In this document: piece after piece, positions 9,916 through 60,845 of the stretch
Position numbering within the stretch: the stretch's first letter is position 1
How the letters are laid out: each line of letters starts with the position of its first letter
From: Siphonodentalium dalli
Taxonomy: Eukaryota > Mollusca > Scaphopoda > Gadilida > Siphonodentaliidae
Direction: 5' to 3'
DNA length: 64,000 bases
NCBI GenBank assembly: GCA_032622095.1
Contig: CP136061.1
Location: forward strand, 250,431,582-250,495,581
Notes under the pieces: model-generated
Told to the model about the DNA's origin: nothing
The model's input: the letters and a program-made list of their open reading frames with translations, nothing else
Databases searched by the model: none
Translations under genes and position numbers: made by a program

Positions 9916-10009
9916 TCATCCATCTTTCATCTGGAGATCAAACATATCTCGTAACATGTTCATACTCGGAGCATATCTCATCTCGTTCTGTATAGATGCA
10001 ATCCGCCAA
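9916..10009 (-). CDS. LIN37: LIN37 exon 8 (last, with stop)
   Basis: The acceptor is CACTTTTGCAG, directly before 10009. One nt completes AG|T (Ser), then come [30 protein letters not shown] and a stop at 9916-9918. This corresponds to the conserved LIN37 C-terminus, which in human ends with a W-K-E-A-S..RYSES..ILREM pattern. The phase matches exon 7 (ends with AG). I see no clear AATAAA on this strand in the next 200 bases. Confidence 0.9.
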
Positions 10010-13000
10010 CTGCAAAAGTGAAAACAATTATAAATATTTACATAGCCCGTCTGTGTTACACTAAATCATGGTCGGCGATTGGTCAACTGCCAATTTGGCC
10101 ACCAGTTTTATATCCAAATAACACACAGACCCCCAATAACCCAAACAGCGTAACACGAACATGACATCACAAAGTGTTGACCTAATCACCAAAAAGCGGT
10201 CAGCAGAATAATTGTGAGCGCTTTTCAAAATTCAGCCGAATTGCATCCGAAGCCAGTTATTTATATCAATCACGTTATCATTGCTAAGTGCTTGAAAATC
10301 TAAAATAGGGCTAACCAAATGTGTTGAGTGGCCTAGTCTCAAATTCTTGGCAGATTTTGTGAAAATAAATAAGAATACATGCAGATTTTTTATGGGAACA
10401 AATCATCAAAATGCTATATAAATATAAGAAATGAATGTAGTGGGTGAGTGTGTGTTGATGGGGGATACGTTACTGTGGTCGTTCGGGGCACGGCACGTTC
10501 ACACAATATGCCACAATGCCGTTTCCCCCAATAACACACACCCCCTACATTCATTTCTTATACAATGCTTAACATATTTTGTTTATTAAATACTCATTTC
10601 CTAGTAGTTCCCTTAGGAAATATTCAGATAATAAGTTCAACATCCGTGTACATAATAATAATAATAATAATAATAACAAGTGCAACATAAAGCGTGGCAT
10701 ATGCCCCCCGAAGCTCAGTTTAGAGAGTGGGCAATACTAAATATCTGTTTGGATGGAGAATCTTTTTTATTTTATAAACCCAAGAAGTGGGTATCTTTTC
10801 CCATTAAACTGAGCTATCAATACACAAAGCACAACCAAATCCAATGATCCATGGCCATGTTACAAGCTGAAATGTTCATACGGCTACAAAATTAAGAAAT
10901 TCCCAAGTCAAACAAGGGCTTAAAAAATTTGAAGTCACACAAGGAAAGGAAACCTGTAGTAAATCGGTATGGCATCCTTTCCCTGAGCTGTGCTATCACC
11001 ATGCCAAAGGACAACCAAATCCGATAGTTAACACCTGAGTTAAAGTTAACCCTTTACCCAACAGAACGGCCCTGTGCCAATGCATTCTCTTATATATGCG
11101 AGTCGACCATAGGTCGCCTCGCATATATAAGAGAATGCATTGGCTTAACACATTAAAAATTATAAAATTGTTAAAGAATGTAAGAAAAAATGGTAAAAAG
11201 TGTTAAAAAAAGATTTCTTTTAGGCCAATGCATTCTCTTATATATGCGAGGCGACCTATGGTCGACTCGCATATATAAGAGAATGCATTGGCACAGGGCA
11301 TAACTGTAACTATCACAATATGGTCAAGGAGCCGGTTCCAATGATATCCATATTTGTATGGTTCTATTGAGACAGACCGAAGATATTTTAGGCTGTTGAA
11401 GCTTTATTTGGCCGGTTGTGGCCGGTTTGTTGGGTAAAGGGTTAAAGGTGATATGTTCAGACGGACAAAAAATTCACAAATTTCCAAGTCAAACTATGGC
11501 CGTAACTCTGGTAAATATTAATAGACGAAACCCGTAGTATGTGGGTATCATTTCCCACAACCTGTGCTATCACCATGCCAAAGGATAATAAAATCTGATG
11601 ATTAACACCTGACTTACAAGGTGATATGTTCAGACGGACACAAAATTCACAAATTTCCAAGTCAAACTATGGCCGTAACTCTGGTAAATATTAATAGACG
11701 AAACCCGTAGTATGTGGGTATCATTTCCCACAACCTGCGCTATCACCATGCCAAAGGATAATAAAATCTGACGATTAACACCTGACTTACAAGGTGATAT
11801 GTTCAGACGGACACAAAATTCACAAATTTCCAAGTCAAACAAGGGCCATAACTGGTAAATATTAACAGACGAAATCAGTATCATTTCCCACAACCTGTGC
11901 TATCACCATGTCAAAGGACCATAAAATCCGATGATTAACACCCGAGTTACAAGGTGATATGTTCGGACGGACAGTAAATTCAAAAATTTTCAATCAAACA
12001 TGGGCGGTAACTCTGGTAAAACTAAAACCGCATTCTACAGGTACCCATTCCAATATGTGGGACAATTATTACCCTGATAAGCCTTGAATACTCAGTTACC
12101 ATCTAATGCTCCCTGGGGACGGGGAGGTACAGCCACAATGTGGCTAGCATACGGACAATATCGTTCACTGCTCATAATCAGGTACCATTTTCAACGCATG
12201 TGTGGGGCGAAACAGTCACAGTATGAACGACCTTGCATAAGGGTCACAACTTGGCGCGAAATATGAACAGCGTACAATACGACAATTGCATGTCGATCAA
12301 TTCGGCCAAGCCACTGCTGTGTGAAACTCACATTAGACCAGTGGCAGGCTGTGAACTAACAAAGCACTAACCACAGAGCTTCACATATTGGTATTTCTTA
12401 CCTCTCCCTGATTTCTTTCCATCGATTCATGTGATTGAGCAGCAGGGTTTCAGGAGCAGGAGCAGTGTCGGGATCCTAAGAGAAGAGATATATTTTATTA
12501 TACGCTTACAATAGATTATTGAAAAAAATGCGGACAAATAATAATCATTATCCCACACCAGGCATTTTTTAAGCATGACAGGTTGAAAATGGACCCCGTC
12601 CCAATGGAAAATAGTCAGGTTCTTCTCCAATTTCCCAATTCACAGAAAGTAATGCCTTCTTTTTATGAATATATTTAAAGAAATATTATGGACTTGTTCG
12701 GGTGCGTGAAACTAATAAGTTAGTATTCAGGTGCTATGCCAACTGGAGGAATGTAGCATTCTACTAACATCGCCAAAAATCAACCGTACCACTCCATAGG
12801 AGACATCGTCTGAATTGTAAATTTATTTTTCGATTACAGTTGTAAAACTCTAATTTTCCCAATGGAAAGGGTCTGGAAGTCCGGGTCTGTATCCAAAAAC
12901 GGGTAGAAAAATCAGTGCATACTGTGAAGATATAGAAATGTTCACGTTCCCACTATCCATAAGCTATGTAAAGCAAAATCAGCTCACAAGAGTTAGCTAA

Positions 13001-16000
13001 ATATTTAATCTTCAGTTGGGATCTTCACTTGCTATGAAATACATATTAAGGAACAGGTATGAAATAAGAAATAATTATCTGCACTATTTTTTTTCTATGT
13101 TAAGGTTACCTGTGAGAACTACAAAATATTCCCAGTACGGTTCGTGCTGCCGCTTGCCAATTTTGCTAATAGCAAAAAATATTTCCATTACGCAAATATT
13201 CGATATTTAATTTGTAATTCGATTCAACCACAATATTCGATTCAAATTCGATTCGACTTTGAAACAACGAATGATAATTTTGAATACACCAAACCAAATG
13301 CGAACTTAATGTATTTATCAGTAATATTTGAACATTCACAACTACTGCGAAGTATAAACAGTAAATTCACTCGCAAATATTCCCTCAAAATGTTACGTTT
13401 TAAGTTTACTTTAACTGTTCTAACCCACTTGTTTCGCGGGTGTTCTGTAAAGTTTTCATTGACGCTGGTATAAGTAATTTGTTTGTTATTGGCTCACACG
13501 GTAGATTATGTCAATTTGCATGAAACAGCAGAAGGTAATTATAAAATTGTTTTCACAGTTAATCCCCTTTGTATGGACTCAGTCATTGTAACAATGCATA
13601 TTACTGGCAACATTGTTCACCACATATTTAAAATGTCATTGTTTAATGACCAGTGAGTATAAGACAATAGTTAATCAGTCGAATGTGCATGGCGAGAGAC
13701 AGATTAATTTGTGGCTCGGCTTTGTTGCCAACTAAGATACAGGACAAAATGACAGATACTTGTAGTTTGATAACTGTCTAGCAGTAATTTCCTGGTATCC
13801 CTTAGATATTTATTGCTACTTTATATATGTGACCCGCCATATCAAATCCAGTCGTAAGTCGGGATTTGTTTACCCTGTGCCAATGCATTCTCTTATATAT
13901 GCGAGTCGACCATAGGTCGCCTCGCATATATAAGAGAATGCATTGGCCTAACAATTTTTTACAATTTTAATAATTTTTTCTTGTATTCTTTAACAATTTT
14001 ATAATTTCACCTATACAGAGCCCCAGACAAACATGAGCAGACGACACTCTTCTATATGCTTCTATATATGTGTGGGGCTCCCTGCAGGGTAATGGATGTT
14101 TTTTATTTTATGTCCTAAAAATTGTAAGAAACATTAATTTAAAAAAAATGATAAAAAATTGTTAGGCCAATGCATAGGTCGACTCGCATATATAAGAGAA
14201 TGCATTGGCACAGGGTAAAAAAATCCCGACTTACAACTGGATTTGTTATGGCGGGTCACATATATATTAATATTTATTAATAAAACAAGCTTGCTTTACT
14301 AGCTCATTTTACCTGTGTCTGGTTAGTTTTTCATTTATTATATAAGAAGAGACAAGAACATCGCTATGGCATGGCAAGATACGCCCGTGGTAATTCCAAC
14401 AAATGGCCATAACTCTGGTGAAAATAAGCAGGCGGAACCTGAATACGAACTTGACTATCTTGTGCTAGGAAACCCACATACTAAATTTCATTCCATTCAG
14501 TTGAGATTATCTAAAGTTAGCATCTGGAAAACAAAAGTGGACAGACGAATGGACAGACCAATAAAAATGAGAATTTCCTTCAATTTCCCCAATTATACCT
14601 TCAATTAAATTTGGCCAAAAAAAAATTGTTTGGCAAAAATTTCAGCAAGAGAAAATTCAGATCCAGCGCCAGCTCTGATTTCCAGGTAGCCATAGTAGAG
14701 ATTCATGACACAATCTACAGAGTAGGGTGACAAAACCAAAACTCAAATTGACTTAAGTCATTTGGTAGTTAAGTTGAGGCATACTTACACCATTGATGTC
14801 TAAATTAAGTTGAGGCATACTTATGTAATAGGACTACTTTTATTGTTTTATAGTTCACTTGCTCAATTAACAGAATTATAACGAAATTATATTTTATTAT
14901 ACAATGGTATTTCAGGGGTTAAATCACAAATGTTTTCTAGTAACAATTACACTTAACCCTTTGAACCCGTAACACCGATATTTAGGTGCAAACGAACCGT
15001 GACTATATCCCGTAACACCGATATTTCGGTGCAGCGACGACATGATTCGGTAGCAAATTTATATATAGTATAACGAGCGTCTGACCCACTGATTTATATT
15101 TAAATTGCCCCCACATATGTCAGCGGCGCCCATGGTGCGTATGGAATGGTTGACCGCTAGTGTCGGGTAGAAATATATGCGCATGCGCATAGCATATAAT
15201 CTACAAAAACATACGATATTTTAAGCGAACTATGCCGCTATATTTACGGCATATAATTTCGTGTTCCCCGTGTGTGTACAGAACAGACGTAATTTAGACA
15301 CACAATTTCAGTTTAAATTACCCTCGTGTATATTAACCAGTGTTCTGCTACATATGGGGAAGGGTCTATCGCATATGAAGTTGATTTATTCGCGCATGCG
15401 CAGACTAGCGCAATGACAAATAAATGGTTTATAACGTACTTATACACGACATACCCACTAATATATATATTTAAATTGGCCTATTGAAGTCAGCGCTGGC
15501 AAAGGTGTCTATATGGATTGGCTGCCCGCTAGAAATGGCTAGGAAAATATGCGCATGGGCGCAGACTATAATTCATTTTAAAAATGCGTTTAAGTTAAAT
15601 GTGGCGCTATATATGACATTTTGTTTCATGTTTCACATGTTAGTATAGTAGACACAATCTAGACAGCTTACTTGAACAATGGGGCCACGATATGTTACGG
15701 GAAATTACGTTGTTTCTGGTCTCTGTAATATCAGTCTCTGTTGTGCCACATGCAGCAAAAAGTCTATCGCATATCAAGTTGACTTACTCGCGCATGGTCA
15801 GGTATATCTTAATTTCACATTAGGATATTGGTTGCATCGAAACGCAATTCGCTGATGTATAATTACAACGTTATAAGCTAGAATTCGTTTATCCTGCAAA
15901 TTTCGGGTAGTTGCCTAGTAACCGTTTCAAAGGCGAGATCGGGTGACAAAGTATCCCGATCTTACAATGATCAGTGGTCCGTGCATGCATATATCATGCC

Positions 16001-19000
16001 TGCACAGTTTCAGGTAGGTGTCCCCTTTCAACATAACCAACACCATGCGACTATACACTGTCTAAATTAAGGCAAAACATACCACTGAATGGTTAGTGCA
16101 ATTATGTCATTCGATCAGTTGTGGTATTTGCTTAGCAACCGTTGCTACCCTTAAATGGGATATTTGGTTCACTATTCTGGTCGGGTATATCTCAAATTTC
16201 ACGTTAGAGTAGTACCTGCATCAAAAAACGCAATCACTGAGGTTGAATTACGACGCTATAAGCTATATTTACATTTTCCAGTCAATTCCGGGTAGTTGCC
16301 TAGCAACCGTTACCAAGGAGTTGCCGCGAGGCAAAGTCTCGCGATCTTATAATGATCGCTGATCCATGGGGGACAAACCTGTAAAGTTTCAGACCGGTGT
16401 CGCAATTTGAACATAATCAACACCATGCTACTAGAAACTATCTAATTTAAGCGGACATACCTCTGGGAGCCCCGGGTCAGGGTGTCGATCACTGTGGGGC
16501 GCCAGGGTTCAAAGGGTTAACACAGCATGCACATGCGCAGTTTGGCTTTTTGTATAATACGGACATAAACACTCATAGCAGTAATCACCTGTGCGTGAAC
16601 TTTCGCGCCTTTGGTTTCCCGCGCTTGTAAACGCTATTCATCTAGCCTTTTCAGATTGCCACCAGCGGTTGACAAAGGCAGTCGACCATCTGTCCAGTTT
16701 CAATACACATGTTATACTGGGATTTATTTATACACAAAAACAGGCCTTTATCACACAAAATAATGTAACTATTGCTTTTATTATTTACCCAATCTTATAA
16801 TGCCCCATTTTACAGTATTCCATTTAAATAATATTTGGAAGTAGTAAATTCTAGTGATATCTTTAATATATTTCCCATGTGATGCATTTCTGCATTTCTT
16901 TAATCAAGCTTTTAAAAGTTACTATTCACCTCAATCATCTAAATCCATATTAGATCTTCTTTAAATCCAAAGTGTCATGTAATCTCATTTTATAATTTAG
17001 TCTCTAAGCAAAGGTTGTGTGTTCTTTTAGATTCATTCATATCACTTAATGTCTGTTCAATTTTATATTTCAGGGCTCGGTTTATTCTTCATACGTGCAA
17101 TATGACCATATTACCATGGTTAGTCTACATATAAATGTATCTCAACGACAAGCAGTGTTCGTTGTTATTCGTGAAATAGACCCGCCCGAGATTCAAAGAT
17201 CACCACAGGGGAGTCCTATTTCACTTACACCATTGATGTCTAAGTTAAGTTGAGGCATACTTACACCATTGATGTCTAAGTTAAGTTGAGGCATACTTAC
17301 ACCATTGATGTCTAAGTTAAGTTGAGGCATACTTACACCATTGATGTCTAAGTTAAGTTGAGAGGTACTTACACCATTGATGTCTAAGTTAAGTTGAGGC
17401 ATACTTACACCATTGATGTCTAAGTTAAGTTGAGGCATACTTACACCATTGATGTCTAAGTTAAGTTGAGGCATACTTACACCATTGATGTCTAAGTTAA
17501 GTTGAGGCATACTTACACCATTGATGTCTATGTTAAGTTGAGGCATACTTACACCATTGATGTCTAAGTTAAGTTGAGGGGTACTTACAGCATTGATGTC
17601 TAAGTTAAGTTGAGGCATACTTACACCATTGATGTCTAAGTTAAGTTGAGGCATACTTACACCATTGATGTCTAAGTTAAGTTGAGGCATACTTACACCA
17701 TTGATGTCTAAGTTAAGTTGAGGCATACTTACACCATTGATGTCTAAGTTAAGTTGAGGGGTACTTACAGCATTGATGTCAAGAGGCTCGTCTGTTGTTG
17801 GTAGTATGTCTGGAATCCTATAGTCTGTTTCATCATGTGGATCGTGTTTTATCGGAGATGGAAGCTTGTATATATCAGGAAGTTTGTCTAGCTGTAATTA
17901 TTTATAGAGGATAACTAATGTCGAGCAAAAGCTCGGCTCGAATCAAATTTAGTGGACAAGGTTAATAAATAATAATAATAAATTTTGTACAGATTTGCGA
18001 CGAATTTGAGATACTTTTTATCATATGAAAGTGTCAATGACACTGTAGCTCAACTTGGAAAGGGAATAATTTAATGTATTACAGTCAATGGAGCGATTAG
18101 GAATGTGGAAAGTTGAATGTCTAATACTAGTTTATAGACATGAAGAGAAAAGTAAAATCCAAGATGGCTGCTGGCGGCCATGTTTTCGGCCGAATGACCC
18201 CAAAATGATTGTATCCCATCTACATGTCATCGTTAACATCCATGACAAATTTTATGACGATCAGACTAAAGGTACGACCTGTAGCCTATGCTAAAGAATT
18301 TAGTCATACAAAGAGTAAAATCCAAGATGGCTGCTGGCGGCCATGTTTTTTGGCCGAATGACACCAAAATGACTCGTTCCCATCTACATGTCATACAAAG
18401 AGTAAAATCCAATATTAACAACCATGACAAATTTCATGATGATCAGACGAACAGTACGACCTGTGGCCCATGCTAATGGATTAAATTTTGAAATCCAAGA
18501 TGGCCACTGGCGGCCATGTTTTTTGTCCGAATGACCCCAAAATGACTCGTTCCCATTTACATTCCAATTTCAACAGCCATGACAAATTTTATGATGATCA
18601 GACTAAATGTACGACCTGTAGCCCGTGCTAAAGGATTTAGTCATACAAAGAGTAAAATCAAAGATGGCTGCTGGCGGCCATGTTTTTCTGCCGAATGACC
18701 CCAAAATTACTCGTTCCCATTTACATTCCAATTTCAACAGCCATGACAAATTTTATGATGATCAGACTAAAGGTACGACCTGTAGCCCGTGCTAAAGGAT
18801 TTAGTCATACAAAGAGTAAAGTCAAAGATGGCTGCTGGCGGCCATGTTTTTCTGCCGAATGACCCCAAAATGACTCGTTCCCATCTACATGTCATTATTA
18901 ACATTCACGACAAATTTTATGATGATCAGACTAAAGGTACAACCTGTAGCCCGTGCTAAAGGATTTAGTCATACAAAGAGTAAAATCCAAGATGGCTGCT

Positions 19001-22000: not shown

Positions 22001-25000
22001 TACTGATGTATTCAACACAAGCATTGTAGGAAATCAAGTTGCTTTCAATGATTGCATTTAACTTAAGCATTTTTCAATAAGGTAAAAATTCATTTGCAAA
22101 TGAAGCCTTTTGCTTTATAATTTACCTCATCGTCACTGTCGGCTTGCTTGCAGCTTTCGATGACTGGAGTCTTTGATCTCTGTGAGTCTTTAGAGTTAGG
22201 CTGGTTCCGCATCCATTCTCGACATATTGGGTACAGTGAGCTTGTCATATTAAACTGTGCCAGGTCCACACTACGATCAAATAGCTTCATTATGTATGTT
22301 TCTGTAAGAGGAGGCATATCAGAATGTAAATTGTAAGCAACCTACAGAGAACCAGATAGCAAACCCACCTGGCAAATTATTAACTTGCGAATATTTAAAT
22401 TGATTGTGGTAGGGCTGTGATGATATCCTTTGTCATCATAGGATACAAATCATGATACATAATCAACATCCGGCGCATATCCCCCCCCCCATGTGGCATA
22501 CCACCTAATGTGAAACTCAGGCAGACAGACCCAAAAAATCAGCATTATCAGATAAACAAATATGAATGACCCTAGAATGAAAAACGTGAGCAAACCGGTT
22601 GAACACCTCATAGTCGTGAAGATCTATAACAAATTTTATGAAGATCCGACAACTTATGGCTGAGATATTTGCTCAGAAGGATGAAAAAAAACCCAACATT
22701 TCCAGATAAACAAAGATGAATAACTCTTGAATGGAAAACAAACAAAACGATTGAACACTCCTTTGAATGTCCTCATAGTAGTGAACATCCATACCAAATT
22801 TCATTGAGATCCGACGACCGGTGGTGGCGATATCGGCTCAGACAGACAAAAAGTCAACATTTCCATATAAACAAAGTTTCATAACTCTAGAATGGAAAAC
22901 CCAAACAAAATGATTGAACACTCCATTGAATGTCAAATTTCAATGAGATCTGAGCACTACTGTTCAAGTTATGACCTGAACAGACATCATGCGGACATAC
23001 TGAACAGACCGATGGAAGCCCCAACAGATGGATGGAACCCATTCCTATTCCCCAGGGTGAAAAATTTTCAGGTGGGGGATAACAAGGGCCATAATTCTGA
23101 AATATGGTTCACAGAACAGATAATTACGGTTACATTCTCTAGGAGACTGCACAATCTCTGGTGTTTCTTCATCTCGTCTCTTCCGCTTTCTACTGTTTTT
23201 CGTCGATTCTCTGTTGCCAAAGAGCTGAATTTTTCTGGGAGATGACGCAGGGGATGACTCCCTGAAGTAATCAAATTTCATTTAACCCTTTACCCAACAG
23301 AACGGCCCTGTGCCAATGCATTCTCTTATATATGCGAGTCGACCATAGGTCGCCTCGCATATATAAGAGAATGCATTGGCTTAACACATTAAAAATTATA
23401 AAATTGTTAAAGAATGTAAGAAAAAATGGTAAAAAGTGTTAACAAAAAAATTTGTTTAGGCCAATGCATTCTCTTATATATGCGAGGCGACCTATGGTCG
23501 ACTCGCATATATAAGAGAATGCATTGGCACAGGGAATAACTGTAACTATCACAATGTGGTCAAGGAGCCGGTTCCAATGATATCCATATTTGTATGGTTC
23601 TATTGAGACAGACCGAAGATATTTTAGGCTGTTGAAGCTTTATTTGGCCGGTTTTGGCCGGTTTGTTGGGTAAAGGGTTAATGTACATCATATGATGCAC
23701 ACATGAGCTGTGCTCAATATTGCTCACAACTAGATAATTTAAAATTTATAAATCAATAAGCAAGCCTTTAAATAGTGTGAATTTAGTGACGCTACCTCAC
23801 ACAGCGGACTACATTAGCATTACAAAATTGACCCTCTGGGGACCTCATTCTGCTTAGGCTTCATCTTTATCTATATATTCTTAAATTATAGTATCTATAG
23901 TCTTAAATTAACATTGTTTTTAGTTACTTTTTCCCTTCTGTTCAATTTTGTATATCCCCTAATTTGCTGAAGATAAAATGCATAATTGTGGTGACTAATG
24001 GGTGAACAACACTAGGGAACTTCAATCCGATCCTAAATTTACCTTAGCAGTTGAGGCCTCAGCAGAATGAGGTCCCTCGAGGGTGAATTTGGTGATGCTA
24101 GCCCAATGTGTGGGATTATGTCACTAAATTCACTCTCTGAGAATCTCATTCCGCACATGACGGACACACTATTTCAAGGCTTGTGAATAAGGGCCGGAGC
24201 GATACTAATAAGTTGCCTCTGCAATTTCACTCTAATTCCACCTGTCACATTTAACCCTTCCATGACTGGAGCTTCCTGAAAGTTTGCGAACTTTGCCATA
24301 GCATTAATTTCTCTTATATATGCGAGTCGAGTCTAGCATATATAAGAGAATACATTGGCCTAAAATTTTGACCTTGACATTGTAAGCTAGTGCATTCTCT
24401 TATATATGCGAGGCTACCAAAGGGGGACTAGCATATAAGAGGATGCACTGGCACAGGATCTTTAATGCTGCACCAGCGTAGCTCCCATCATGAAAGGGTT
24501 AAATGTTAATTGTGTGCACTGAAAGTGTTAATATATAGTACACATATGAATAATTAAAGCGACTCATAATGTTCAGCGTCAGAGACAGATATTAATCGGT
24601 TCTAAACTTTCCGCCTAAATAAATCTTTATTGTTACATGATAAAAGCAAATAATTACTACACATGTCAGGGGGGGGGGGGGTCGGAATTTTTTTTCAGGC
24701 ATGTATGCTGATTTTTACCTTTTGACCCTTGTTGGGACCCAGTGACCCACCCACCCCCGCGTCCAAATTTTTTTCCGTTTTCGGCAGTTTTTTCCGACCA
24801 TTTTTGGACACCCAAACAGAGATTTGTAGGGGGAAATTTGGGGGGGGGGGGGACACTAAAACAGAGATTTGCGGGGGAAATTCACTGTAAACAGCTGTAT
24901 ATGAATGTCTGTGCATACAATTTGTCATGGATGTTAACATTGACATGTAAATAGGAATGAGTCATTTTGGGGTCATTCAGCCAAAAAAACACATGGCTGC

Positions 25001-28000
25001 CAGTGGCCATCTTGGATTTCAAAATTTGCAACAAAATACAACACGATAACTGCCTGCAGTCAGTTTATCAGTTAGAATTACATTATTTCTCTTATTCTAA
25101 GGTGTTTTAAGCCAAACTCATTGCAAAAACAGTCAAAAAACTTGCAGGAAATATTTTTTTGAGTTGCGGAAAAAATTGTTTGTTGGTCCCATCGATCATC
25201 CACCCACCCGGCATACGTGCCCAGCACATGTAGGTTTAATTTGAGGCCTGAGTATTAAGGAGTCGCTTTGAACAACATTGTCAATAATGTTTGTCAAGTT
25301 TATTAATATGGTATGTTTTTCATTTGAAAAGTTAATTATATATTTTTATTACACTCATATGCGCGATTTCCATTGAAAACGCTGTTAATTAAAAATGGTA
25401 ATGTCACTAGTGAATTATTTCATTTCCTGTGACGTCATTGATGTTACGTCGCTTACTGATCTAAACTGAATTTTCGATAGTTGATCTTTCTCCACATCGG
25501 GAATTTCATGCATTAATGCTGTGTGTTTTATTCATATTTGGCGAAACAAATTGATGCAGAAGTGTAATAAATAGAGTAATCAATAAGTTCCGAGAATTAT
25601 GTTAAATAATTCACTCGAGGCGAAGATATTTAGGTAAGAAACTTGTGCGTTAACGCGCACTCGTTTCTTACCGACGTCTCTCACCTCTCGTGAATTATTT
25701 AACATAATTCTCGGAACCAATTGATTACTCTCTATATGTTACACAAGTCCTTACCTGCTTATTATATCAACAGCATCGGAGAGACTATCTATAGTATACA
25801 CAGGTCTGAAAATAGAAATACAAGGGAGAGACTATCTATAGTATACACAGGTCTGAAAATAGAAATACATCAGAGAGCCTATCTATAGTATACACAGGCT
25901 TGAAAATAGAAATACATCAGAGAGCCTATCTATAGTATACACAGGCCTGAAAATAGAAATACATCGGAGAGACTATCTATAGTATACACAGGTCTGAAAA
26001 TAGAAATACAATGGAGAGACTATCTATAGTATACACAGGCCTGAAAATAGAAATACATTAGAGAGACTATCTATAGTATACACAGGCTTGAAAATAGAAA
26101 TACATCGGAGAGACTATCTATAGTATACACAGGCCTGAAAATAGAAATACATCGGAGAGACTATCTATAGTATACACAGGCCTGAAAATAGAAATACATC
26201 GGAGAGACTATCAATAGTATACACAGGCCTGAAAATAGAAATACAAGGGAGAGACTATCTATAGTATACACAGGTCTGAAAATAGAAATACATCAGAGAG
26301 ACTATCAATAGTATACACAGGTCTGAAAATAGAAATACAAGGGAGAGACTATCTATAGTATACACAGGTCTGAAAATAGAAATACAAGGGAGAGACTATC
26401 TATAGTATACACAGGTCTGAAAATAGAAATACAAGGGAGAGACTATCTATAGTATACACAGGTCTGAAAATAGAAATACAAGGGAGAGACTATCTATAGT
26501 ATACACAGGTCTGAAAATAGAAATACAAGGGAGAGACTATCTATAGTATACACAGGTCTGAAAATAGAAATACATCAGAGAGACTATCAATAGTATACAC
26601 AGGTCTGAAAATAGAAATACAAGGGAGAGACTATCTATAGTATACACAGGTCTGAAAATAGAAATACAAGGGAGAGACTATCTATAGTATACACAGGTCT
26701 GAAAATAGAAATACAAGGGAGAGACTATCTATAGTATACACAGGTCTGAAAATAGAAATACATCAGAGAGCCTATCTATAGTATACACAGGCCTGAAAAT
26801 AGAAATACATCGGAGAGACTATCTATAGTATACACAGGTCTGAAAATAGAAATACAAGGGAGAGACTATCTATAGTATACACAGGTCTGAAAATAGAAAT
26901 ACAAGGGAGAGACTATCTATAGTATACACAGGTCTGAAAATAGAAATACAAGGGAGAGACTATCTATAGTATACACAGGTCTGAAAATAGAAATACATCA
27001 GAGAGCCTATCTATAGTATACACAGGCCTGAAAATAGAAATACAAGGGAGAGACTATCTATAGTATACACAGGTCTGAAAATAGAAATACAAGGGAGAGA
27101 CTATCTATAGTATACACAGGTCTGAAAATAGAAATACAAGGGAGAGACTATCTATAGTATACACAGGTCTGAAAATAGAAATACATCAGAGAGCCTATCT
27201 ATAGTATACACAGGCCTGAAAATAGAAATACATCGGAGAGACTATCTATAGTATACACAGGTCTGAAAATAGAAATACAAGGGAGAGACTATCTATAGTA
27301 TACACAGGTCTGAAAATAGAAATACAAGGGAGAGACTATCTATAGTATACACAGGTCTGAAAATAGAAATACAAGGGAGAGACTATCTATAGTATACACA
27401 GGTCTGAAAATAGAAATACATCAGAGAGCCTATCTATAGTATACACAGGCCTGAAAATAGAAATACAAGGGAGAGACTATCTATAGTATACACAGGTCTG
27501 AAAATAGAAATACAAGGGAGAGACTATCTATAGTATACACAGGTCTGAAAATAGAAATACAAGGGAGAGACTATCTATAGTATACACAGGTCTGAAAATA
27601 GAAATACAAGGGAGAGACTATCTATAGTATACACAGGTCTGAAAATAGAAATACAAGGGAGAGACTATCTATAGTATACACAGGTCTGAAAATAGAAATA
27701 CATCAGAGAGCCTATCTATAGTATACACAGGCCTGAAAATAGAAATACATCGGAGAGACTATCTATAGTATACACAGGTCTGAAAATAGAAATACAAGGG
27801 AGAGACTATCTATAGTATACACAGGTCTGAAAATAGAAATACATCAGAGAGCCTATCTATAGTATACACAGGCCTGAAAATAGAAATACATCGGAGAGAC
27901 TATCTATAGTATACACAGGTCTGAAAATAGAAATACAATGGAGAGACTATCTATAGTATACACAGGCCTGAAAATAGAAATACATTAGAGAGACTATCTA

Positions 28001-29761
28001 TAGTATACACAGGTCTGAGAATAGAAATAGAAAATCCCATTGTATCTTCAGCCATACTTAAAGTAATTGATCACCTCTAACGTGGTGTCACCCCGGAAAT
28101 ACCAAAGTGTCAAACTGCGGTAACCTCCAACACTGCAATGAGGAAGTAGCCTGTGCAAGCTGATAATGCATGAATTCTGTCAACGTTGCTACACACCAAT
28201 CAAGATCAAAGGGAATCATGCGACATCAAATAAAACACGTTACCTTAGCTCCACTGCAGTGACCGATTCAATACTGCGGTGGATGCCATAAACAACCGGT
28301 AATGCCATGGTCATTACCGGGGTATCACCCTCATTTTCAGGTCAATTACTTTGAGGATAGCCGAAACGGTGGTGTTTGGAAATCTTTCAATGATACGACT
28401 ATGATAATCAGGGATTCATCAACCATGAAGGAAAGACAGACTTTGACATCGCTATCAATGCCACACAAAATTGGGTCAATCAAATGTTTTAAATTTTCCA
28501 TACGTCATGCTAAAAAAATAGGTTGGTTAATACACTGTTACACCCTGTCGAAGCACATGGATTGTTCTTGCCAAATTCACAAAGGCCATCTGTATATACA
28601 CATGTAATCTAGATGTCATAAATTTACATTCAAATTTGACGGAATAATCTTAAGCAAATTGAACCTGTTGGCATACGTATTATTGAGATGGCATAATATA
28701 TAGATACCGGTACCAATGTTAGTACAATGCTAAAAAAATAAAATATCAACTGCATGGTGCTATTTATTCAATGTACATTTTTAGGCTGTTAATTACTCTA
28801 GCGGTAAAATTTTAGGTTTAATACTAAGTTCGGTGGTTATATATGTGATAGGCTGATGCATCGCATTATTTTTGTAGAATCTGACAAATTAATGAAAGCA
28901 GATTGGACTTAATAATAAATGATCTGAACAGTTACTCACGCGTCATCTTTCTTCTCCCTCAAATTCTGTAATGTGGCACCCAGTCTACTTCGGGCTGTGA
29001 CTACTTCAGTGTGATTATTAATACCTGGATGATATTAAAACATGCAGTGTGATTATTAATACCTGGATGATATTAAAACATGCAAGCATGAGTCTTTGTA
29101 CACACGGTATGTATGTGTTATATAGAGTATCATAACAACAGAATAAATGGATGAAATAACTTATGCCATAATAAAAATATGGTTTGTTTGCAGTCACCCG
29201 ACCTGCTGGCAAGAAAGTCAATTTTTTAAATCTATTATCTGATTCTCAAAATAAGTGTCCATTTTAACGCAGTTGTTGTGTTTATTACATATTGAAGGTA
29301 GGCCTGCAGTGTGACAGTGTTGATGTTTAACACAGACCGCATTGAAGATTAACGTATCGTGTTAAATTTGTAATCCAACACGGTTGTGTAATGTCAGGGC
29401 TGAATTGTCTATTTTGTAGCATATAGTTAAATTTAGTTCTATTTACATTCGCATCCGAATAATTCAGTGTTATTATTACACTGTAACAACAGGGTTCACG
29501 ATGGGAAAAGTTATGGTTTTTCATATAAAGTTAACAGGGCACTGATCTGCAATTCATATTTTTGCTACAATGTCGTCTTTTGAAGTTATTATTAAATTTA
29601 GGTAGAAGGCTGTTCTGCATCTGTAGTCTTGTGGGCAATATATTATAATACCGGTACAATCTAGCAAGTTGATGAAGATGGCTCCTCCTACCAGCTTGTC
29701 TTCTATACTGATTGACAGCATTGTCAATTTGGAATGTGGGTTTGAAATGGTCAATCTCCAT
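9916..29761 (-). CDS. LIN37: LIN37, MuvB/DREAM complex subunit (whole gene, 8 exons)
   Basis: LIN37 is a subunit of the MuvB core (with LIN9, LIN52, LIN54 and RBBP4) that represses cell-cycle genes as part of DREAM. Exons on the - strand are 29692-29761 (tentative), 28940-29024, 25755-25805, 23128-23261, 22126-22301, 17769-17891, 12402-12475 and 9916-10009. All junctions are GT-AG and every phase agrees (1, 2, 2, 1, 0, 0, 2), giving 268 residues against about 246 in human. Recognised blocks in order are [13 protein letters not shown] (about 34-46), the basic RKRKRRDEE stretch (about 93-101), [16 protein letters not shown] (115-130), [11 protein letters not shown] (136-146, the CRAW motif with E for A), DIYKLPSP (about 178-185), and RWKEIRE with [13 protein letters not shown] near the end. 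Introns hold large repeats and transposons. Two exons are bordered by satellites made of copies of their own splice junctions. Confidence 0.92.
10423..10563. repeat. 140-bp foldback element
   Basis: The arms ATAAGAAATGAATGTAG...GTGTGTTGATGGGGGA and their complement (CCCCCAATAACACACACCCC then CTACATTCATTTCTTAT) surround a loop of about 50 bp. It lies in the last LIN37 intron. A simple ATA-repeat microsatellite lies shortly after, at 10651-10676. Confidence 0.8.
10651..10676. repeat. (ATA)n microsatellite
   Basis: About eight ATA triplets in the last LIN37 intron. Confidence 0.9.
10690..12040. repeat. Degenerate ~175-bp tandem repeat in the last LIN37 intron
   Basis: The unit contains CACAAATTTCCAAGTCAAAC, GCCGTAACTCTGGTAAATAT, TATCATTTCCCACAACCTG and TGCTATCACCATGCCAAAGG. 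The best copies start near 11450, 11620 and 11795, and worn copies lie at 10850-11040 and 11940-12040. A piggyBac-like MITE at 11046-11445 interrupts the array. Open frames at 11457-11893 (-) repeat the same peptide and are not genes. Confidence 0.85.
11046..11445. mobile_element. piggyBac-like MITE, family D copy 1 (392 bp)
   Basis: TTAA (11046-11049), then CCCTTTACCCAACAGAACGG; the right end is TTTGTTGGGTAAAGGG, then TTAA (11442-11445). Between are two large palindromic cassettes of the form TGCCAATGCATTCTCTTATA...TATAAGAGAATGCATTGGC. TTAA duplication with CCCTTT ends is typical of piggyBac-superfamily insertion. It interrupts the ~175-bp tandem repeat, so it is younger than that array. Copy 2 at 23286-23677 has exactly the same length. 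Confidence 0.88.
12402..12475 (-). CDS. LIN37: LIN37 exon 7
   Basis: The acceptor is ATCTCTTCTCTTAG and the donor AG|GTAAGA. It reads [20 protein letters not shown] then EIRE plus two nt (AG). It starts in phase 0, matching exon 6, and corresponds to the human stretch with S-T-L-I-Y-R-N-M-Q-R-W-K. 74 nt. Downstream is an intron of about 2.4 kb filled with tandem repeat and family D. Confidence 0.9.
12476..13825. other. LIN37 intron 7, no further feature
   Basis: The first part of this intron holds no recognisable element apart from ATTCGATTCAAATTCG words at about 13195-13265 that resemble the subterminal parts of the hAT copy at 1248-2890. Open frames 13016-13210 and 13144-13473 are low-complexity and AT-rich. 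Confidence 0.4.
13826..14262. mobile_element. Family F MITE copy 1 (433 bp, TA flanks)
   Basis: TA then TGTGACCCGCCATATCAAAT at the left, and the complement ending GGCGGGTCACA then TA at the right. Long inverted ends (about 45 bp) are followed on each side by the same TATATATGCGAG palindromic cassette found in families A and D. The centre has a unique core (CAGAGCCCCAGACAAACATG ... GTGGGGCTCCCTGC) that can itself pair. Copies 2 and 3 are at 46258-46691 and 50553-51048. Confidence 0.85.
14378..14560. repeat. Dispersed repeat with GCCATAACTCTGGTGAAAA signature
   Basis: Contains AATGGCCATAACTCTGGTGA, CCCACATACTAAATTTCATT and GGACAGACGAATGGACAGAC. The same arrangement occurs at 21700-21890 and in reverse within 40050-40200. 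The open frame 14366-14608 (+) comes from this repeat. The type is common in mollusc genomes as I recall; this copy has no visible ends. Confidence 0.6.
14758..14823. repeat. Orphan copies of the LIN37 36-bp donor repeat
   Basis: Almost two units of the array at 17223-17768 (TTAAGTTGAGGCATACTTAC, ACCATTGATGTC), 2.4 kb away in the same intron. On the - strand it carries another GTAAGTATGCC donor-like site. It lies just outside the piggyBac-like element at 14957-16516. Confidence 0.85.
14953..16520. mobile_element. piggyBac-like element, family E (1560 bp)
   Basis: TTAA (14953-14956), then CCCTTTGAACCCGTAACACC; the right end is GCGCCAGGGTTCAAAGGG, then TTAA (16517-16520). The interior has no transposase frame. 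It contains two diverged internal duplications: about 15060-15400 against 15430-15780 (both with TATATTTAAATTG and ATATGCGCATG), and about 15800-16080 against 16180-16470 (both with GGGTAGTTGCCTAG, AACCG and TATAAGCTA). It lies in the intron after LIN37 exon 6. Confidence 0.8.
16521..17222. other. LIN37 intron 6, no other feature
   Basis: About 700 bases between the family E element and the donor-repeat array. AT-rich. The open frame 16591-16800 (+) has no recognisable domain. Confidence 0.4.
17223..17768 (-). repeat. 36-bp array of LIN37 exon-6 donor junctions (15 extra copies)
   Basis: Sixteen GTAAGT sites lie exactly 36 bp apart on the - strand (ACTTAC on + at 17223, 17259 ... 17763). The last, at 17763-17768, is the authentic exon 6 donor. 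Each unit is 12 nt equivalent to the exon end (GACATCAATGGT; GCT in the exon itself) plus 24 nt of intron start (GTAAGTATGCCTCAACTTAA and TTA less one overlap). Thirty-six is a multiple of three, so the exon frame stays open through all units, with peptide unit [12 protein letters not shown], to a stop near 17193. The variant unit with GGGGTACTTACAGC recurs 180 bp (five units) apart, showing block duplication. I do not treat it as a separate gene. Confidence 0.93.
17769..17891 (-). CDS. LIN37: LIN37 exon 6
   Basis: The acceptor is ATAAATAATTACAG and the donor GCT|GTAAGT. 123 nt, phase 0 at both ends, reading [20 protein letters not shown] then [20 protein letters not shown] and A. The DIYKLPSP block matches DVYKLPPP in human LIN37. 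Its last 12 nt and donor are the seed of the 36-bp array that follows. Use of any downstream donor of that array would add multiples of 12 residues without shifting frame. Confidence 0.9.
18028..20654 (+). mobile_element. Pearl/Helitron-like element (family B) with 15 core monomers
   Basis: The 5' part is GTGTCAATGACACTGTAGCT and the 3' end is a hairpin (AACTTTACAAAGTAAAGTT) followed by GAGCTAA. The core has about 15 monomers of about 161 bp in two types: type a with AGGATTTAGTCATACAAAGA and type b with GGATTAAATTTTGAAATCC. Type b recurs at 18477, 19124, 19769 and 20413, so the core is organised in ~645-bp blocks of b-a-a-a. Shared words are AAGATGGCTGCTGGCGGCCA and GACCCCAAAATNACTCG. The many short + frames in this span are repeat artefacts. 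It lies in the intron between LIN37 exons 5 and 6. Confidence 0.85.
20845..21686. repeat. 49-bp satellite, about 17 copies
   Basis: The unit contains CTAATTAACACTAAATAACC, CAACACAAATTG and AATATCATAATTATGTT. Variant units (CGCAAATTG, CCCCACAAATTG, ACATATTG) recur in the same order, indicating larger block duplications. It lies in LIN37 intron 5 and is not adjacent to an exon. Confidence 0.9.
21700..21940. repeat. Dispersed repeat and a triple TATAAAAAGAG run
   Basis: The first part is another copy of the GCCATAACTCTGGTGAAAA repeat (compare 14378-14560). At 21900-21932 AGTATAAAAAG occurs three times in tandem with a 12-13-bp spacing. Confidence 0.6.
22126..22301 (-). CDS. LIN37: LIN37 exon 5 (core LIN9-binding/CRAW region)
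   Basis: The acceptor is GCCTCCTCTTACAG and the donor GAG|GTAAAT. It starts with two nt of a split codon and ends in phase 0. It reads [52 protein letters not shown] and ADSDDE. Human LIN37 has the same [16 protein letters not shown] and L-Y-P-I-C-R-A-W-M-R-N core, named CRAW, which contacts LIN9. Here it reads CREW. This is the strongest evidence for the gene call. The + frame 22148-22336 is a shadow. Confidence 0.95.
22490..23040. repeat. ~165-bp degenerate tandem repeat in LIN37 intron 4
   Basis: Three diverged copies share AACATTTCCAGATAAACAAA, GAATGGAAAAC, GATTGAACACTCC and AAATTTNATNGAGATCCGAC blocks, with CAGACAGAC words between them. A short poly-C tract is at about 22480-22490. No gene. 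Confidence 0.7.
23128..23261 (-). CDS. LIN37: LIN37 exon 4 (basic region)
   Basis: The acceptor is TTTGATTACTTCAG and the donor ACC|GTAATT. 134 nt with one leading nt (completing Arg with exon 3) and one trailing nt. It reads [32 protein letters not shown] and [12 protein letters not shown]. The basic RKRKRR stretch corresponds to QRRKKRR in human LIN37 and may be a nuclear localisation signal. An alternative donor nine nt upstream is rejected because the junction codon would become a stop. Confidence 0.85.
23282..23681. mobile_element. piggyBac-like MITE, family D copy 2 (392 bp)
   Basis: Flanked by TTAA at 23282-23285 and 23678-23681, with ends CCCTTTACCCAAC and GTTGGGTAAAGGG. It has the same length and near-identical sequence as copy 1 (11050-11441), with two TATATATGCGAG palindromic cassettes. 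It inserted about 20 bp upstream of the exon 4 acceptor, in the intron. Confidence 0.88.
23760..24186. mobile_element. Family L double-hairpin MITE, copy 1
   Basis: Ends AGCAAGCCT...AAATAGTGTG and CACACTATTTCAAGGCTTG. Near each end a hairpin pairs GAGGTCCCNNGAGGGTGAAT with its complement across a GCTAGCCC-type loop. The left hairpin is partly deleted. The better preserved copy is at 49023-49482. In LIN37 intron 3. Confidence 0.7.
24251..24502. mobile_element. piggyBac-like MITE, family A copy 2 (244 bp, intact)
   Basis: TTAA, CCCTTCCATGACTGGAGCTT ... GCTCCCATCATGAAAGGG, TTAA. It carries two hairpins around CTTATATATGCGAG, the same cassette type as in families D and F but more diverged. It is the reference for the split copy at 4825-7145. 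Confidence 0.85.
24660..25030 (-). repeat. G-rich tracts and a truncated family B monomer
   Basis: Poly-G runs at 24669-24680 and 24840-24852 with a related G-rich segment between them. From about 24915 to 25030 the complement of one family B core monomer is present (GAAATCCAAGATGGCCACTG, GACCCCAAAATGACTCATTC). Open frames here are artefacts of these tracts. Confidence 0.7.
25570..25736. repeat. 165-bp foldback element next to LIN37 exon 3
   Basis: The arms ATAGAGTAATCAATAAGTTC...GAGAATTATGTTAAATAATT and their complement enclose a loop of about 50 bp containing a second short palindrome (GTGCGTTAACGCGCAC). It starts 18 bp downstream of the exon 3 donor. Confidence 0.8.
25755..25805 (-). CDS. 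LIN37: LIN37 exon 3 (short, at the edge of a satellite)
   Basis: The acceptor is TATTTCTATTTTCAG and the donor CAG|GTAAGG. 51 nt reading [16 protein letters not shown] with one leading and two trailing nt. Phases fit exon 2 (ends GC, giving Ala) and exon 4 (AG|G, Arg). I do not recognise this peptide from vertebrate LIN37, so the assignment rests on splice sites, phase and position. Its first 33 nt with the acceptor form the 47-bp satellite unit upstream. Confidence 0.75.
25774..28031 (-). repeat. 47-bp array of LIN37 exon-3 acceptor junctions (48 copies)
   Basis: GTATAC, present once per unit, falls at 25794 and again every 47 bp to 28003: exactly 47 intervals, so 48 units without a net indel. 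On the - strand each unit is ATTTCTATTTTCAG followed by about 33 nt of exon 3 start (ACCTGTGTATACTATAGATA, GTCTCTC ...). The unit nearest the gene's 3' side is the real acceptor of exon 3. Variants AGGGAGAGACT, TCGGAGAGACT and TCAGAGAGCCT recur every four to six units, a higher-order pattern. At least two units have CAAG for CAGN at the junction. Confidence 0.93.
28032..28939. other. LIN37 intron 2, remaining part
   Basis: No element recognised. A short palindrome (CCGGTAATGCCATGGTCATT) is at about 28298-28320. The + frame 28302-28607 has no domain or splice context. Confidence 0.4.
28940..29024 (-). CDS. LIN37: LIN37 exon 2 (N-terminal helix)
   Basis: The donor is GAC GC|GTGAGT and the acceptor TTTTAATATCATCCAG. 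85 nt read [20 protein letters not shown] then LREKKDDA, with two nt on either side. Human LIN37 has M-A-K-A-R-N-Q-L-D-A-V-L-Q-C-L at the same place. The 38 bp around its acceptor are duplicated (29007-29044 and 29045-29082), giving two candidate 3' splice sites, of which the proximal one keeps the frame with the tentative exon 1. Confidence 0.85.
29007..29082 (-). repeat. 38-bp tandem duplication of the exon 2 acceptor
   Basis: Two identical copies of a 38-bp unit: on the - strand 20 nt of intron end (CATGTTTTAATATCATCCAG) plus 18 nt of exon start (GTATTAATAATCACACTG). A third case in this gene of a unit spanning a splice junction. Confidence 0.9.
29237..29480. repeat. Possible MITE related to 32450-32745
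   Basis: Contains ATTCTCAAAATAAGTGTCC at 29241-29259, whose complement ends the segment near 32745. Both carry several GACCGCATTGAARATTA-like words. The other end is not resolved. Confidence 0.4.
29692..29761 (-). CDS. LIN37: LIN37 exon 1, tentative start codon
   Basis: An ATG at 29761 with an in-frame TAA six nt upstream and a purine at -3 opens [20 protein letters not shown] then RQA plus one nt, ending at CTG|GTAGGA. The phase (1) fits exon 2 and the junction codon would be Gly. No similarity to vertebrate LIN37 N-termini is certain, and the donor is not strong. An alternative is a start codon elsewhere in 29083-31250. Confidence 0.45.
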
Positions 29762-55185: not shown

Positions 55186-55189
55186 AATA

Positions 55190-57358
55190 GATGGAAGCAT
55201 ATTAGTACTGCTCTGCACTTACAGATGGAATTATACAGTATTAGTACTGCCGTGTACTTACAGATGGAATCACATTAGTACTACTTTGTACTTATGGATG
55301 GAATCATATTAGTACTGCTTTGTACTTTCATATGGAATCATATTAGTATTTATGTGTACTTACAGATGGAATCATATTAGTACTGCCGTGTACTTACAGA
55401 TGGAATCACATTAGTACTTCTGTGTACGTACAGATGGAATCATATTAGTACTGCCATGTACTTTCATATGGAATCATATTAGTATTTATGTGTACTTACA
55501 GATGGAATCATATTAGTACTGCTTTGTACTTACAGATGGAATCATATTAGTACTTCTGTGTACGTACAGATGGAATCATATTAGTATTTATGTGTACTTA
55601 CAGATGGAATCATATTAGTACTGCTTTGTACTTACAGATGGAATCATATTAGTACTTCTGTGTACGTACAGATGGAATCATATTAGTACTGCTTTGTACT
55701 TACGGATGGAATCACATTAGTACTACTTTGTACTTACGGATGGAATCACATTAGTACTACTTTGAACTTATGGATGGAATCATATTAGTACTGCTTTGTA
55801 CTTATGGATGGAATCATATTAGTACTACTTTGTACTTACGGATGGAATCACATTAGTACTACTTTGAACTTATGGATGGAATCACATTAGTACTACTTTG
55901 TACTTACGGATGGAATCACATTAGTACTACTTTGAACTTATGGATGGAATCACATTAGTACTACTTTGTACTTACGGATGGAATCACATTAGTACTACTT
56001 TGAACTTATGGATGGAATCACATTAGTACTACTTTGTACTTACGGATGGAATCACATTAGTACTACTTTGAACTTATGGATGGAATCATATTAGTACTGC
56101 TTTGTACTTATGGATGGAATCATATTAGTACTACTTTGTACTTATGGATGGAATCATATTAGTACTGCTTTGTACTTATGGATGGAATCATATTAGTACT
56201 GCTGTGTACTTAGATGGAATCACATTAGTACTACTTTGTACTTACGGATGGAATCACATTAGTACTACTTTGTACTTACGGATGGAATCATATTAGTACT
56301 GCTTTGTACTTATGGATGGAATCATATTAGTACTGCTGTGTACTTAGATGGAATCACATTAGTACTACTTTGTACTTACGGATGGAATCACATTAGTACT
56401 TCTGTGTACTTACAGATGGAATCATATTAGTACTGCTGTGTACTTACAGATGGAATCACATTAGTACTTCTGTGTACTTACATATGGAATCATATTAGTA
56501 CTTCTGTGTACTTACAGATGGAATCATATTAGTACTTCTGTGTACTTACAGATGGAATCACATTAGTACTGCTGTGTACTTACAGATGGAATCATATTAG
56601 TACTGCCGTGTACTTACAGATGGAATCACATTAGTACTACTTTGTACTTACAGATGGAATCATATTAGTACTGCTTTGTACTTATGGATGGAATCATATT
56701 AGTACTGCTTTGTACTTATGGATGGAATCATATTAGTACTGCTTTGTACTTATGGATGGAATCATATTAGTACTGCTGTGTACTTAGATGGAATCACATT
56801 AGTACTACTTTGTACTTACGGATGGAATCACATTAGTACTACTTTGTACTTACGGATGGAATCATATTAGTACTGCTTTGTACTTATGGATAGAATCATA
56901 TTAGTACTGCTGTGTACTTAGATGGAATCACATTAGTACTACTTTGTACTTACGGATGGAATCACATTAGTACTTCTGTGTACTTACAGATGGAATCATA
57001 TTAGTACTGCTGTGTACTTACAGATGGAATCACATTAGTACTTCTGTGTACTTACATATGGAATCATATTAGTACTTCTGTGTACTTACAGATGGAATCA
57101 TATTAGTACTTCTGTGTACTTACAGATGGAATCACATTAGTACTGCTGTGTACTTACAGATGGAATCATATTAGTACTGCCGTGTACTTACAGATGGAAT
57201 CACATTAGTACTACTTTGTACTTACAGATGGAATCATATTAGTACTGCTTTGTACTTATGGATGGAATCATATTAGTACTGCTTTGTACTTATGGATGGA
57301 ATCATATTAGTACTGCTTTGTACTTATGGATGGAATCATATTAGTACTGCTGTGTACT
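55190..57358. repeat. 34-bp satellite, about 63 copies
   Basis: The unit is GATGGAATCATATTAGTACT followed by GCTTTGTACTTACA or variants (TACGG, TATGG, TTAG). A block of about 574 bp is duplicated: the rare short unit (ACTTAGATGG) recurs at 56211 and 56785, and at 56345 and 56919. On the - strand many units read CCATCTGTAAGTAC, a good donor consensus, but no exon borders the array. Confidence 0.92.
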
Positions 57359-57805
57359 TTCCTGGGAGAGTTCTATTGAGGAGTTAATTTTATAACTGTT
57401 GTGGGTGAGTTGAACAGCTTGAAGTGAAGTTGGAAGGGACCCAAGGCTTTCTAAGTCAGTATGTGTGAAATAAGATTAATTATATAAAAGTCTGTATTAT
57501 GTCAAAATAAAAAAATTAATAAGAAAAATTTAATTTTAAGCCAACCCTAATTTTTTATGACTTGTAACTCCAACAAGATACCTAATTTTCTTGAACCCAA
57601 GAATCATAGGATGTAACAGAACAAAGAACACTGGTAAATACCAGTACATTACCAGTACATTACCAGTACACATGAAAAGGTCAACTGGAGGTTGGCTTAC
57701 TGTCAGTATATGTACAGGTATCATCAAATAAAATATGGCATCAACTACAATATAGATTGACTTTGTTCTAATTTTCATTATAAATTATCAGTTATGGTGT
57801 TTCCC

Positions 57806-58018
57806 ATATCAGAACCATCGCCAGGTAAACATTAATGTTATACCGGTAGTGGCATTTCTCATATCAGAACCATCGCCAGGTAAACATTATTGTTATACCG
57901 GTAGTGGCATTTCTCATATCAGAACCATCGCCAGGTAAACATTAATGTTATAGTGGCATTTCTCATATCAGAACCATTGCCAGGTAAACATTAAACCATC
58001 GCCAGGTAATGTTATAGT
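57806..58018 (+). repeat. 55-bp array carrying AG-12 nt-GT modules (4 copies)
   Basis: Each unit has TTTCTCATATCAG, then AACCATCGCCAG, then GTAAACATTA. The 12-nt modules start at 57813, 57868, 57923 and 57972, and a partial fifth copy (AACCATCGCCAGGTAA) follows. Each module could be a 12-nt microexon with both splice sites, or the copied end of an exon. Confidence 0.8.
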
Positions 58019-59095: not shown

Positions 59096-59099
59096 AAGG

Positions 59100-60060: not shown

Positions 60061-60314
60061 AAAGTAATGCCCTAATTAATCGACTCCTTAACCACAGCAG
60101 AATTATGGGTAACTTTTCAGGATTTAGTCGGAAATATGGCTTGTTGCCATTCATCGGAAAGCTCTCAGTGAGCTCCGATGAATGGAAACAAGCCATATTT
60201 CCTCGGGGAGAGCTTTCCGATGAATGGCAACAAGCCATATTTCCGACTAAATCCTGAAAAATTACCCATAATTCTGCTGTGGTTAAGGAGTCGATTAATT
60301 AGGGCATTACTGTA
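60061..60314. mobile_element. pogo-like foldback MITE (family J) with re-duplicated stem
   Basis: AAAGTAATGCCCTAATTAAT ... AGGGCATTACTGTA. The centre carries an extra copy of the stem tip (CGGAAAGCTCTCAGTGAG, then GGGAGAGCTTTCCGATG). It ends about 60 bp upstream of the exon at 60377. Confidence 0.82.
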
Positions 60315-60376
60315 TGTTCTGTCTATTTAGTCACCTCTCATTTCATTACTTTTGACCTTGACTTTTTATTTCACAG

Positions 60377-60509
60377 GACAATGAGATGACAGGTGTGTGG
60401 CCGGAGTAACAGTTGTAAGCTGGTGTCATGGACGCAGATCCCGATGAATGTCTCCATCCAGGCAGTGAAAACATCGACTGGCAATCTGACAAAGCTGCAA
60501 AGTCTAAAC
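60377..60509 (+). CDS. Candidate exon with start codon; its end is tandemly copied downstream
   Basis: The acceptor is CTTTTTATTTCACAG and the donor AAAC|GTAAGC. An ATG at 60428 (purine at -3, G at +4, in-frame TAA at 60416-60418) opens MDADPDECLHPGSENIDWQS then DKAAKSK plus one nt. I do not recognise the protein. An alternative is that the exon is a terminal one in another frame: DNEMTGVWPE then TAA at 60407. The acidic, charged composition and good splice sites favour a real exon. Copies of its last ~42 nt with the donor follow (60526-60569 and 60698-60741). Confidence 0.5.
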
Positions 60510-60845
60510 GTAAGCCATCATTATAAAACATCGACTGGCAATCTGACAAAGCTGCACAGTCTAAACGTAAGCCATCATTATGAGGGGTACCCTCTCCAAA
60601 CATAAGCCATCATTATGTGGGGTACCCTCTCTAAGCGTAAACCATCATTATGTGGGATACCCTCGTATTAGTATGTGGCTCTAACTCAATAAACAAGAAC
60701 ATTGACTGGCAATCTGACAAAGCTGCACAGTCTAAACGTAAGCCATCATTATGAGGGGTACCCTCTCCAAACATAAGCCATCATTATGTGGGGTACCCTC
60801 TCTAAGCGTAAGCCATCATTATGTGGGATACCCTCGTATTAGTAA
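60510..60845 (+). repeat. Tandem copies of the exon end and donor
   Basis: Two further copies of the unit AACATCGACTGGCAATCTGA-CAAAGCTGCA-CAGTCTAAAC-GTAAGCC, plus shorter ~34-bp units (TAAGCCATCATTATGTGG, GGTACCCTCTCTAAGC). Several of these end in AAGC|GTAAGC or AAAC|GTAAGC. A larger block containing all of these is repeated about 170 bp apart (60536 and 60707). Confidence 0.85.

Follow-up and report, generated by a model that had tools for sequence, protein, structure and literature searches.

Do minisatellites gather at splice junctions beyond what chance would place there and, if so, by what process? The question is raised by a stretch of 64,000 nucleotides from the Siphonodentalium dalli genome (C1:250431582-250495581, in a genome of 2.23 Gb and nine contigs), hereafter the window, in which a sequence-only reading had named five tandem repeats carrying splice sites. 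All five were found by TRF. Three of them straddle splice sites of LIN37; for the remaining two the exon is only plausible (60.4 kb) or has no support (57.8 kb).

LIN37 lies on the minus strand between 9.9 and 29.0 kb and was identified by homology: the spliced exons match human LIN37 (PDB 7r1d_B, E=1.1e-34), the model without exon E3b matches Pfam PF15306 (E=1.3e-41), and a search of the genome with the PF15306 profile gave a single match, which is exon E4. The model comprises seven exons of consistent phase and 13 junctions, the 5' end not having been found. Support for the short exon E3 comes from phase and splice signals more than from similarity, its alignment to human LIN37 being poor. 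The donor of E3b was set at 23128 rather than 23134, because the latter creates a stop codon. A 19-bp array (×6.8, window 9615-9744) lies a few hundred bases past the LIN37 stop codon.

According to TRF and the gene model, three of the 13 LIN37 junctions are spanned by tandem repeats (Table 1). The array over the E5 donor contains 12 exonic nt, and its 36-bp unit consists of about 12 nt of exon end followed by 24 nt of intron start; the 47-bp array contains 28 exonic nt of E3, and the 38-bp duplication 18 exonic nt of E2. The 36-bp array is split by a 2.4-kb insert with imperfect terminal inverted repeats and a likely 5-bp target duplication (ACTTA), beyond which the array resumes at 14.77 kb. 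A pattern search of the genome, allowing up to three mismatches, placed the 35-base cores of the 36-, 47- and 57-bp units (the last from 60.4 kb) at 16, 48 and three places, all at their own loci: at this stringency there is no introner-like dispersal, and a transposon-borne satellite is not supported for any of these three units, each being confined to its own locus.

Table 1. Exons and repeats of the window (positions count from its first nucleotide; a slash in a motif marks the splice junction).
Feature	Position	Strand	Basis
LIN37 E7, last coding exon	9916..10009	-	spliced protein against human LIN37
LIN37 E6	12402..12475	-	gene model and human LIN37 alignment
Split-off stretch of 36-bp array, ~1.7 units	14766..14825	-	core with 1 mismatch; remainder by reading
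Putative transposon splitting the 36-bp array	14826..17222		ends read
36 bp ×15.5, over E5 donor	17223..17780	-	TRF and gene model
LIN37 E5	17769..17891	-	homology and gene model
LIN37 E4	22126..22301	-	PF15306, E=7e-18 at C1:250453719-250453895
LIN37 E3b, basic stretch	23128..23261	-	phase-consistent candidate; partial alignment to human LIN37
LIN37 E3	25755..25805	-	phase agreement with E2 and E3b
47 bp ×47.9, over E3 acceptor (TTTTCAG/ACCTG at exon)	25778..28029	-	TRF and gene model
LIN37 E2	28940..29024	-	human LIN37 alignment from residue 13
38 bp ×2.1 duplication, over E2 acceptor (78 nt = 2×38+2)	29007..29084	-	TRF
55 bp ×3.7 array, AG and GT motifs, exon unsupported	57800..57994		TRF
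Putative first coding exon, phosphatase-like gene	60428..60509	+	ORF and donor AAAC/GTAAGC
Nested 57-, 35- and 171-bp repeats over putative donor	60468..60844	+	TRF

The putative exon at 60.4 kb (MDADPDECLHPGSENIDWQSDKAAKSK) would belong to the phosphatase-like gene that follows on the plus strand; the exon itself has no homology match and falls in no Pfam family. TRF gives two copies of the 57-bp repeat (×2.0, 60468-60581), the core occurring three times altogether, and it is plausible that this repeat sits at a first exon. Farther downstream, at roughly 71.0-83.6 kb of the joined sequence, lie exons for a phosphatase-like protein that matches DSPc at E=1.2e-5 (below the curated cut-off) and tyrosine and dual-specificity phosphatases in PDB (best E=2.3e-5). 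We take the gene to be PTPDC1-like.

The window holds further repeats. A 34-bp array (×64, 55189-57359), whose consensus unit contains GTAAGT on the minus strand, could flag an undetected exon, and a 43-bp array (61531-64000) runs on past the window (L136 1-3036) to a total of about 5.5 kb. The 164-bp array (×13.3, 18410-20563) is of a widespread kind: a first look across the genome gave 2270 candidates, of which 40 were scored. Parts of the unit of a 49-bp array in a LIN37 intron (×17.3, 20844-21689) match many places in the genome, the matches being short among the 40 of 1067 candidates that were scored. Palindromic MITE-like repeated elements, with ends like GCCAATGCATTCTCTTATATATGCGA, lie at 11060-11300 and 13880-14215.

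The sequence-only reading had proposed a comparison of splice junctions with intron DNA. We ran it on 474 junctions, belonging to 237 dynein, kinesin and myosin exons picked by Pfam homology irrespective of repeats, and an excess of multi-copy arrays at junctions is present. The sample used 81 of 89 DHC_N2 matches (162 junctions, 114 kb), 113 of 123 kinesin matches (226 junctions, 90 kb) and 43 of 85 myosin head matches (86 junctions, 53 kb). Those dropped before counting were near-identical paralogues, judged by equal scores (eight DHC and ten kinesin matches), and 42 myosin matches, 39 of which form one paralogue cluster at C4:274-276 Mb. Splice sites were placed from homology ends and a simple weight matrix rather than from RNA; at 13 of the 474 junctions (4+5+4) no splice site was scored, and the homology end was used instead.

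Repeats with a period of at least 25 span 20 of the 474 junctions and abut two more, giving 22 in all. Spanned junctions number 4 of 162 in the DHC exons, 12 of 226 in the kinesins – where the two abutted acceptors, reached within 2 nt, are also found – and 4 of 86 in the myosins. In the myosins a further row, L173 (20 bp ×9.1), has no called acceptor and stands outside the 22, as do two short-period repeats within 3 nt of a junction, L005 (13 bp ×1.9) and L152 (10 bp ×2.0). The myosin cases L145 and L149 are paralogues and probably represent one event; L009 (DHC, 263 bp ×2) is partly a dispersed repeat. Both donors (5' boundaries) and acceptors (3' boundaries) carry arrays. Read by eye, the units hold conserved coding ends, such as MNLVDLA/G in kinesin and LEDPSNYR/ in myosin; at L032 the automatic call overshot by one copy, and the true donor follows QPSLGGDAK. 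By homology, then, a genuine exon-intron boundary lies inside the tandem unit in LIN37, kinesin, dynein and myosin cases alike.

For the enrichment analysis, all 134 repeat arrays were grouped according to how far their exon-side edge lies from the junction, and the multi-copy class was defined by a period of at least 25 and at least 2.5 copies, limits that were fixed after the kinesin data had been seen. Among multi-copy arrays with little cross-locus similarity, 17 of 21 touch a junction where 4.11 are expected after allowing for the visible length of each flank (P=2.1e-9), so that the claim of junction-spanning minisatellites above chance is supported within the sample. This set omits arrays with cross-locus matches, except for L074 and L151 with one match each (to another exon locus in the same region and to another myosin locus, respectively). 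The result persists with every cross-locus match removed (15/19, P=3.3e-8), with the two abutting arrays additionally counted as misses (13/19, P=4.3e-6), and with no exclusions at all (17/26 against 5.09 expected, P=4.2e-7). Its main support is the kinesin sample, where all 12 multi-copy arrays are at junctions. Since the limits were chosen after those data, the non-kinesin families are the fairer test: here five of nine multi-copy arrays are at junctions, against 1.68 expected (P=0.015). Leaving out DHC gives 14/15 and leaving out the myosins 15/18; the myosins by themselves, sampled once the limits had been fixed, give 2/3 (P=0.079). A kinesin intron holds a 37-bp array (×28) some 278 bp away from the acceptor; this array, which weighs against the excess, lies beyond the sampled extent of its locus and was hence uncounted. 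Within the sampled genes, the arrays are recurrent and biased to junctions.

Two-copy repeats behave differently, having no clear junction excess: with a period of at least 20, five fall at junctions as against 11 in nearby intron (P=0.22), or four and 11 without L129, which lies inside its exon (P=0.38). The bias therefore seems to lie in amplification. At a period of at least 25 the counts are five and seven (P=0.082; without L129, four and seven, P=0.18), and some junction enrichment may already be present at the founding duplication. Of the short-period repeats that lack a cross-locus match, four are exonic or at a junction, 27 lie no more than 290 bp away and 15 are more distant.

One kinesin donor array (L122) is common to three paralogues, which carry 14.5, 14.5 and 11.5 copies in the one haplotype compared, and its matches are these three paralogues plus one array of 70% similarity. 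Each of the paralogues (L178, L179 and L180) has, besides the donor array, a 69-bp array on the acceptor side and a 37-bp array of 28-31 copies. The 70%-similar array (C7:8.238 Mb, L181 1342-2018, 30 bp ×23) starts, on a reading of its flank, some 2 nt within an unrelated exon, at what looks like the donor; that exon encodes ...LNKVAGNFHITAG / ...CRIHGSLQLNKVAGNFHITAG, and we take its product to be ERGIC2-like. A 53-bp array (×7) lies near it.

The sequence-only reading knew of no satellites seeded at junctions, yet this structure has been described before. In the available text of PMC3087553 and PMC3902484, minisatellite-like tandem duplications of exon-intron boundaries, called 'mirages', are described from the globin and PGBD5 genes of lancelets and cited from Adh3 and troponin C, with variable copy number and normal splicing apparently undisturbed; their origin and mechanism were called unclear in 2010 (PMC3087553). 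The arrays here resemble these in that the tandem unit contains a 5' or a 3' boundary, and differ from lancelet mirages as there described, in single genes, by their presence in LIN37, dynein, kinesin and myosin, and by a rate that has been measured and tested against introns. They are probably mirages, members of a known and little-studied kind. The Adh3 mirage is reportedly unstable in length in somatic tissue. Lancelet genomes are of about 0.5 Gb and have more chromosomes, and the host genome here, of 2.23 Gb and nine contigs, is unlike them in this. A search of it for the haemocyanin domain PF14830 gave no match, a result that does not amount to absence of the domain.

Repeated splice signals are shared with introners, which are dispersed, and with NAGNAG tandem acceptors, which involve three bases; unlike introners, the L122 array is limited to its three paralogues and the one similar array. 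A tandem duplicate with splice signals can also make a new intron. Such intron gain (PMC4974935, PMC3443670), as the available text presents it, likewise involves short tandem duplication with splice signals; here, by contrast, an existing junction is duplicated, and the intron continues past the array where visible. Internal tandem repeats at exon-intron boundaries, found by TRF as ours were and able to change splicing, have been reported in human genes within segmental duplications (PMC2812944); in the portion of that account available they differ in belonging to recent primate paralogues, in being partly coding and in forming new introns, whereas the arrays here are anchored on an old junction. 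The available text on an abalone intronic minisatellite (PMC6905558) and on intronic minisatellites of worms (PMC4039745) describes no junction arrays. Across the literature searched, seen in part and with few subscription papers, we found neither a junction-enrichment test nor such arrays outside lancelets, the human boundary repeats excepted.

What might produce such arrays? We consider it probable that they are minisatellites of the mirage type, in which a duplication straddling a junction is amplified into the intron, and in which growth beyond two copies is favoured by a splice site in use. On this hypothesis the founding short tandem duplications would fall roughly at random; one that happened to straddle a splice junction would then multiply in head-to-tail copies that extend into the intron, and growth past two copies would be favoured if the unit held a used splice site. 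The copy adjoining the exon would supply the working splice site and the coding end, the remaining copies becoming intron. Our guess as to cause favours a mutational bias, linked to the junction's transcription or splicing, over selection, since nothing indicates that the extra splice sites are being retained. A stronger version, that amplification is steered to working splice junctions and that a duplication becomes an array mainly when every copy contains a splice signal, is possible but less likely than not; if true, it implies a link from transcription or splicing to the amplification of germline DNA. Recombination at short AG-GT repeats, which the sequence-only reading had also suggested, is not supported: in 19 of the 22 rows compared the array reaches 5-72 nt into the exon, so that the repeat does not end at AG/GT, and in one more (L032) the site had been placed a copy too far. 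Two acceptor arrays end at the junction or 2 nt short of it.

Could the pattern be one of chance, in a genome rich in minisatellites some of which happen to lie on junctions, with splice-like motifs near arrays misread as exons? Repeats do make up 23% of the window and 5-7% of the loci sampled, junctions have no greater overall repeat coverage than introns (lower for DHC, about equal for kinesins), and the myosins taken alone are not significant. We nevertheless regard chance as very unlikely, given that the exons were chosen by protein homology, independently of repeats, and that 17/21, 15/19 or 17/26 multi-copy arrays lie at junctions where four to five are expected. For the 36-bp array there is the further alternative that it forms a coding exon with a 12-residue repeat rather than a series of donors. 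One minus-strand frame of 234 aa (window 17193-17897) stays open through the whole array, and since the unit is divisible by three, splicing from an inner donor would lengthen the protein by 12 residues for each copy. Yet the exon-side donor of E5 joins E6 in phase, the open frame terminates within the inserted element, and a single stop-free frame in a 36-bp unit would not be unusual; a coding array thus seems improbable.

Nor do we favour an account in which junction arrays persist because selection preserves their extra splice sites, whether for redundancy or for the further U1/U2 binding sites they provide. GT or AG is kept in most extra copies, and every sampled donor array has at least 12 exonic nt (the later L181 array has only about 2 nt). 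The dinucleotides are, however, no better conserved than their flanks: changes are seen at 15 of 294 GT/AG positions in extra copies and at 65 of 2646 in the flanks (Fisher P=0.013, in the direction of more change, not less), in a comparison whose power is limited by low divergence and whose copy filter favours conserved flanks. L099, where the array ends immediately ahead of AG, accounts for eight of the 15 changes; without it the counts are 7/286 and 65/2574. These counts argue, at low power, against strong selection to keep spare splice sites – the redundancy put forward in the sequence-only reading – and we judge retention by selection quite unlikely. Only a little more can be said for survivorship, by which exon-edge sequence would seed arrays, those within exons would be purged and those at the edge remain: an unlikely account overall. 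It would fit the 11 of 14 sampled donor arrays (L032 excluded) whose unit is more than half exonic, but not the six of seven sampled acceptor arrays whose unit is mostly intronic. Nor do the units stand out as expected of seeding sequence, with a mean GC of 0.367 against 0.371 for their loci and a folding z-score of 0.05 against -0.26 for controls; a hairpin or composition bias of the units was accordingly rejected, GC and folding not differing from the control in that direction.

If minisatellites of the mirage type do grow preferentially from splice junctions, then some process dependent on splicing shapes the DNA itself, and ladders of near-identical decoy sites stand next to a few per cent of the sampled genes' splice sites. 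With counts from a large genome unlike those of lancelets, the origin of mirages becomes testable; the arrays also offer a natural setting in which to ask how the spliceosome chooses among up to dozens of similar sites.
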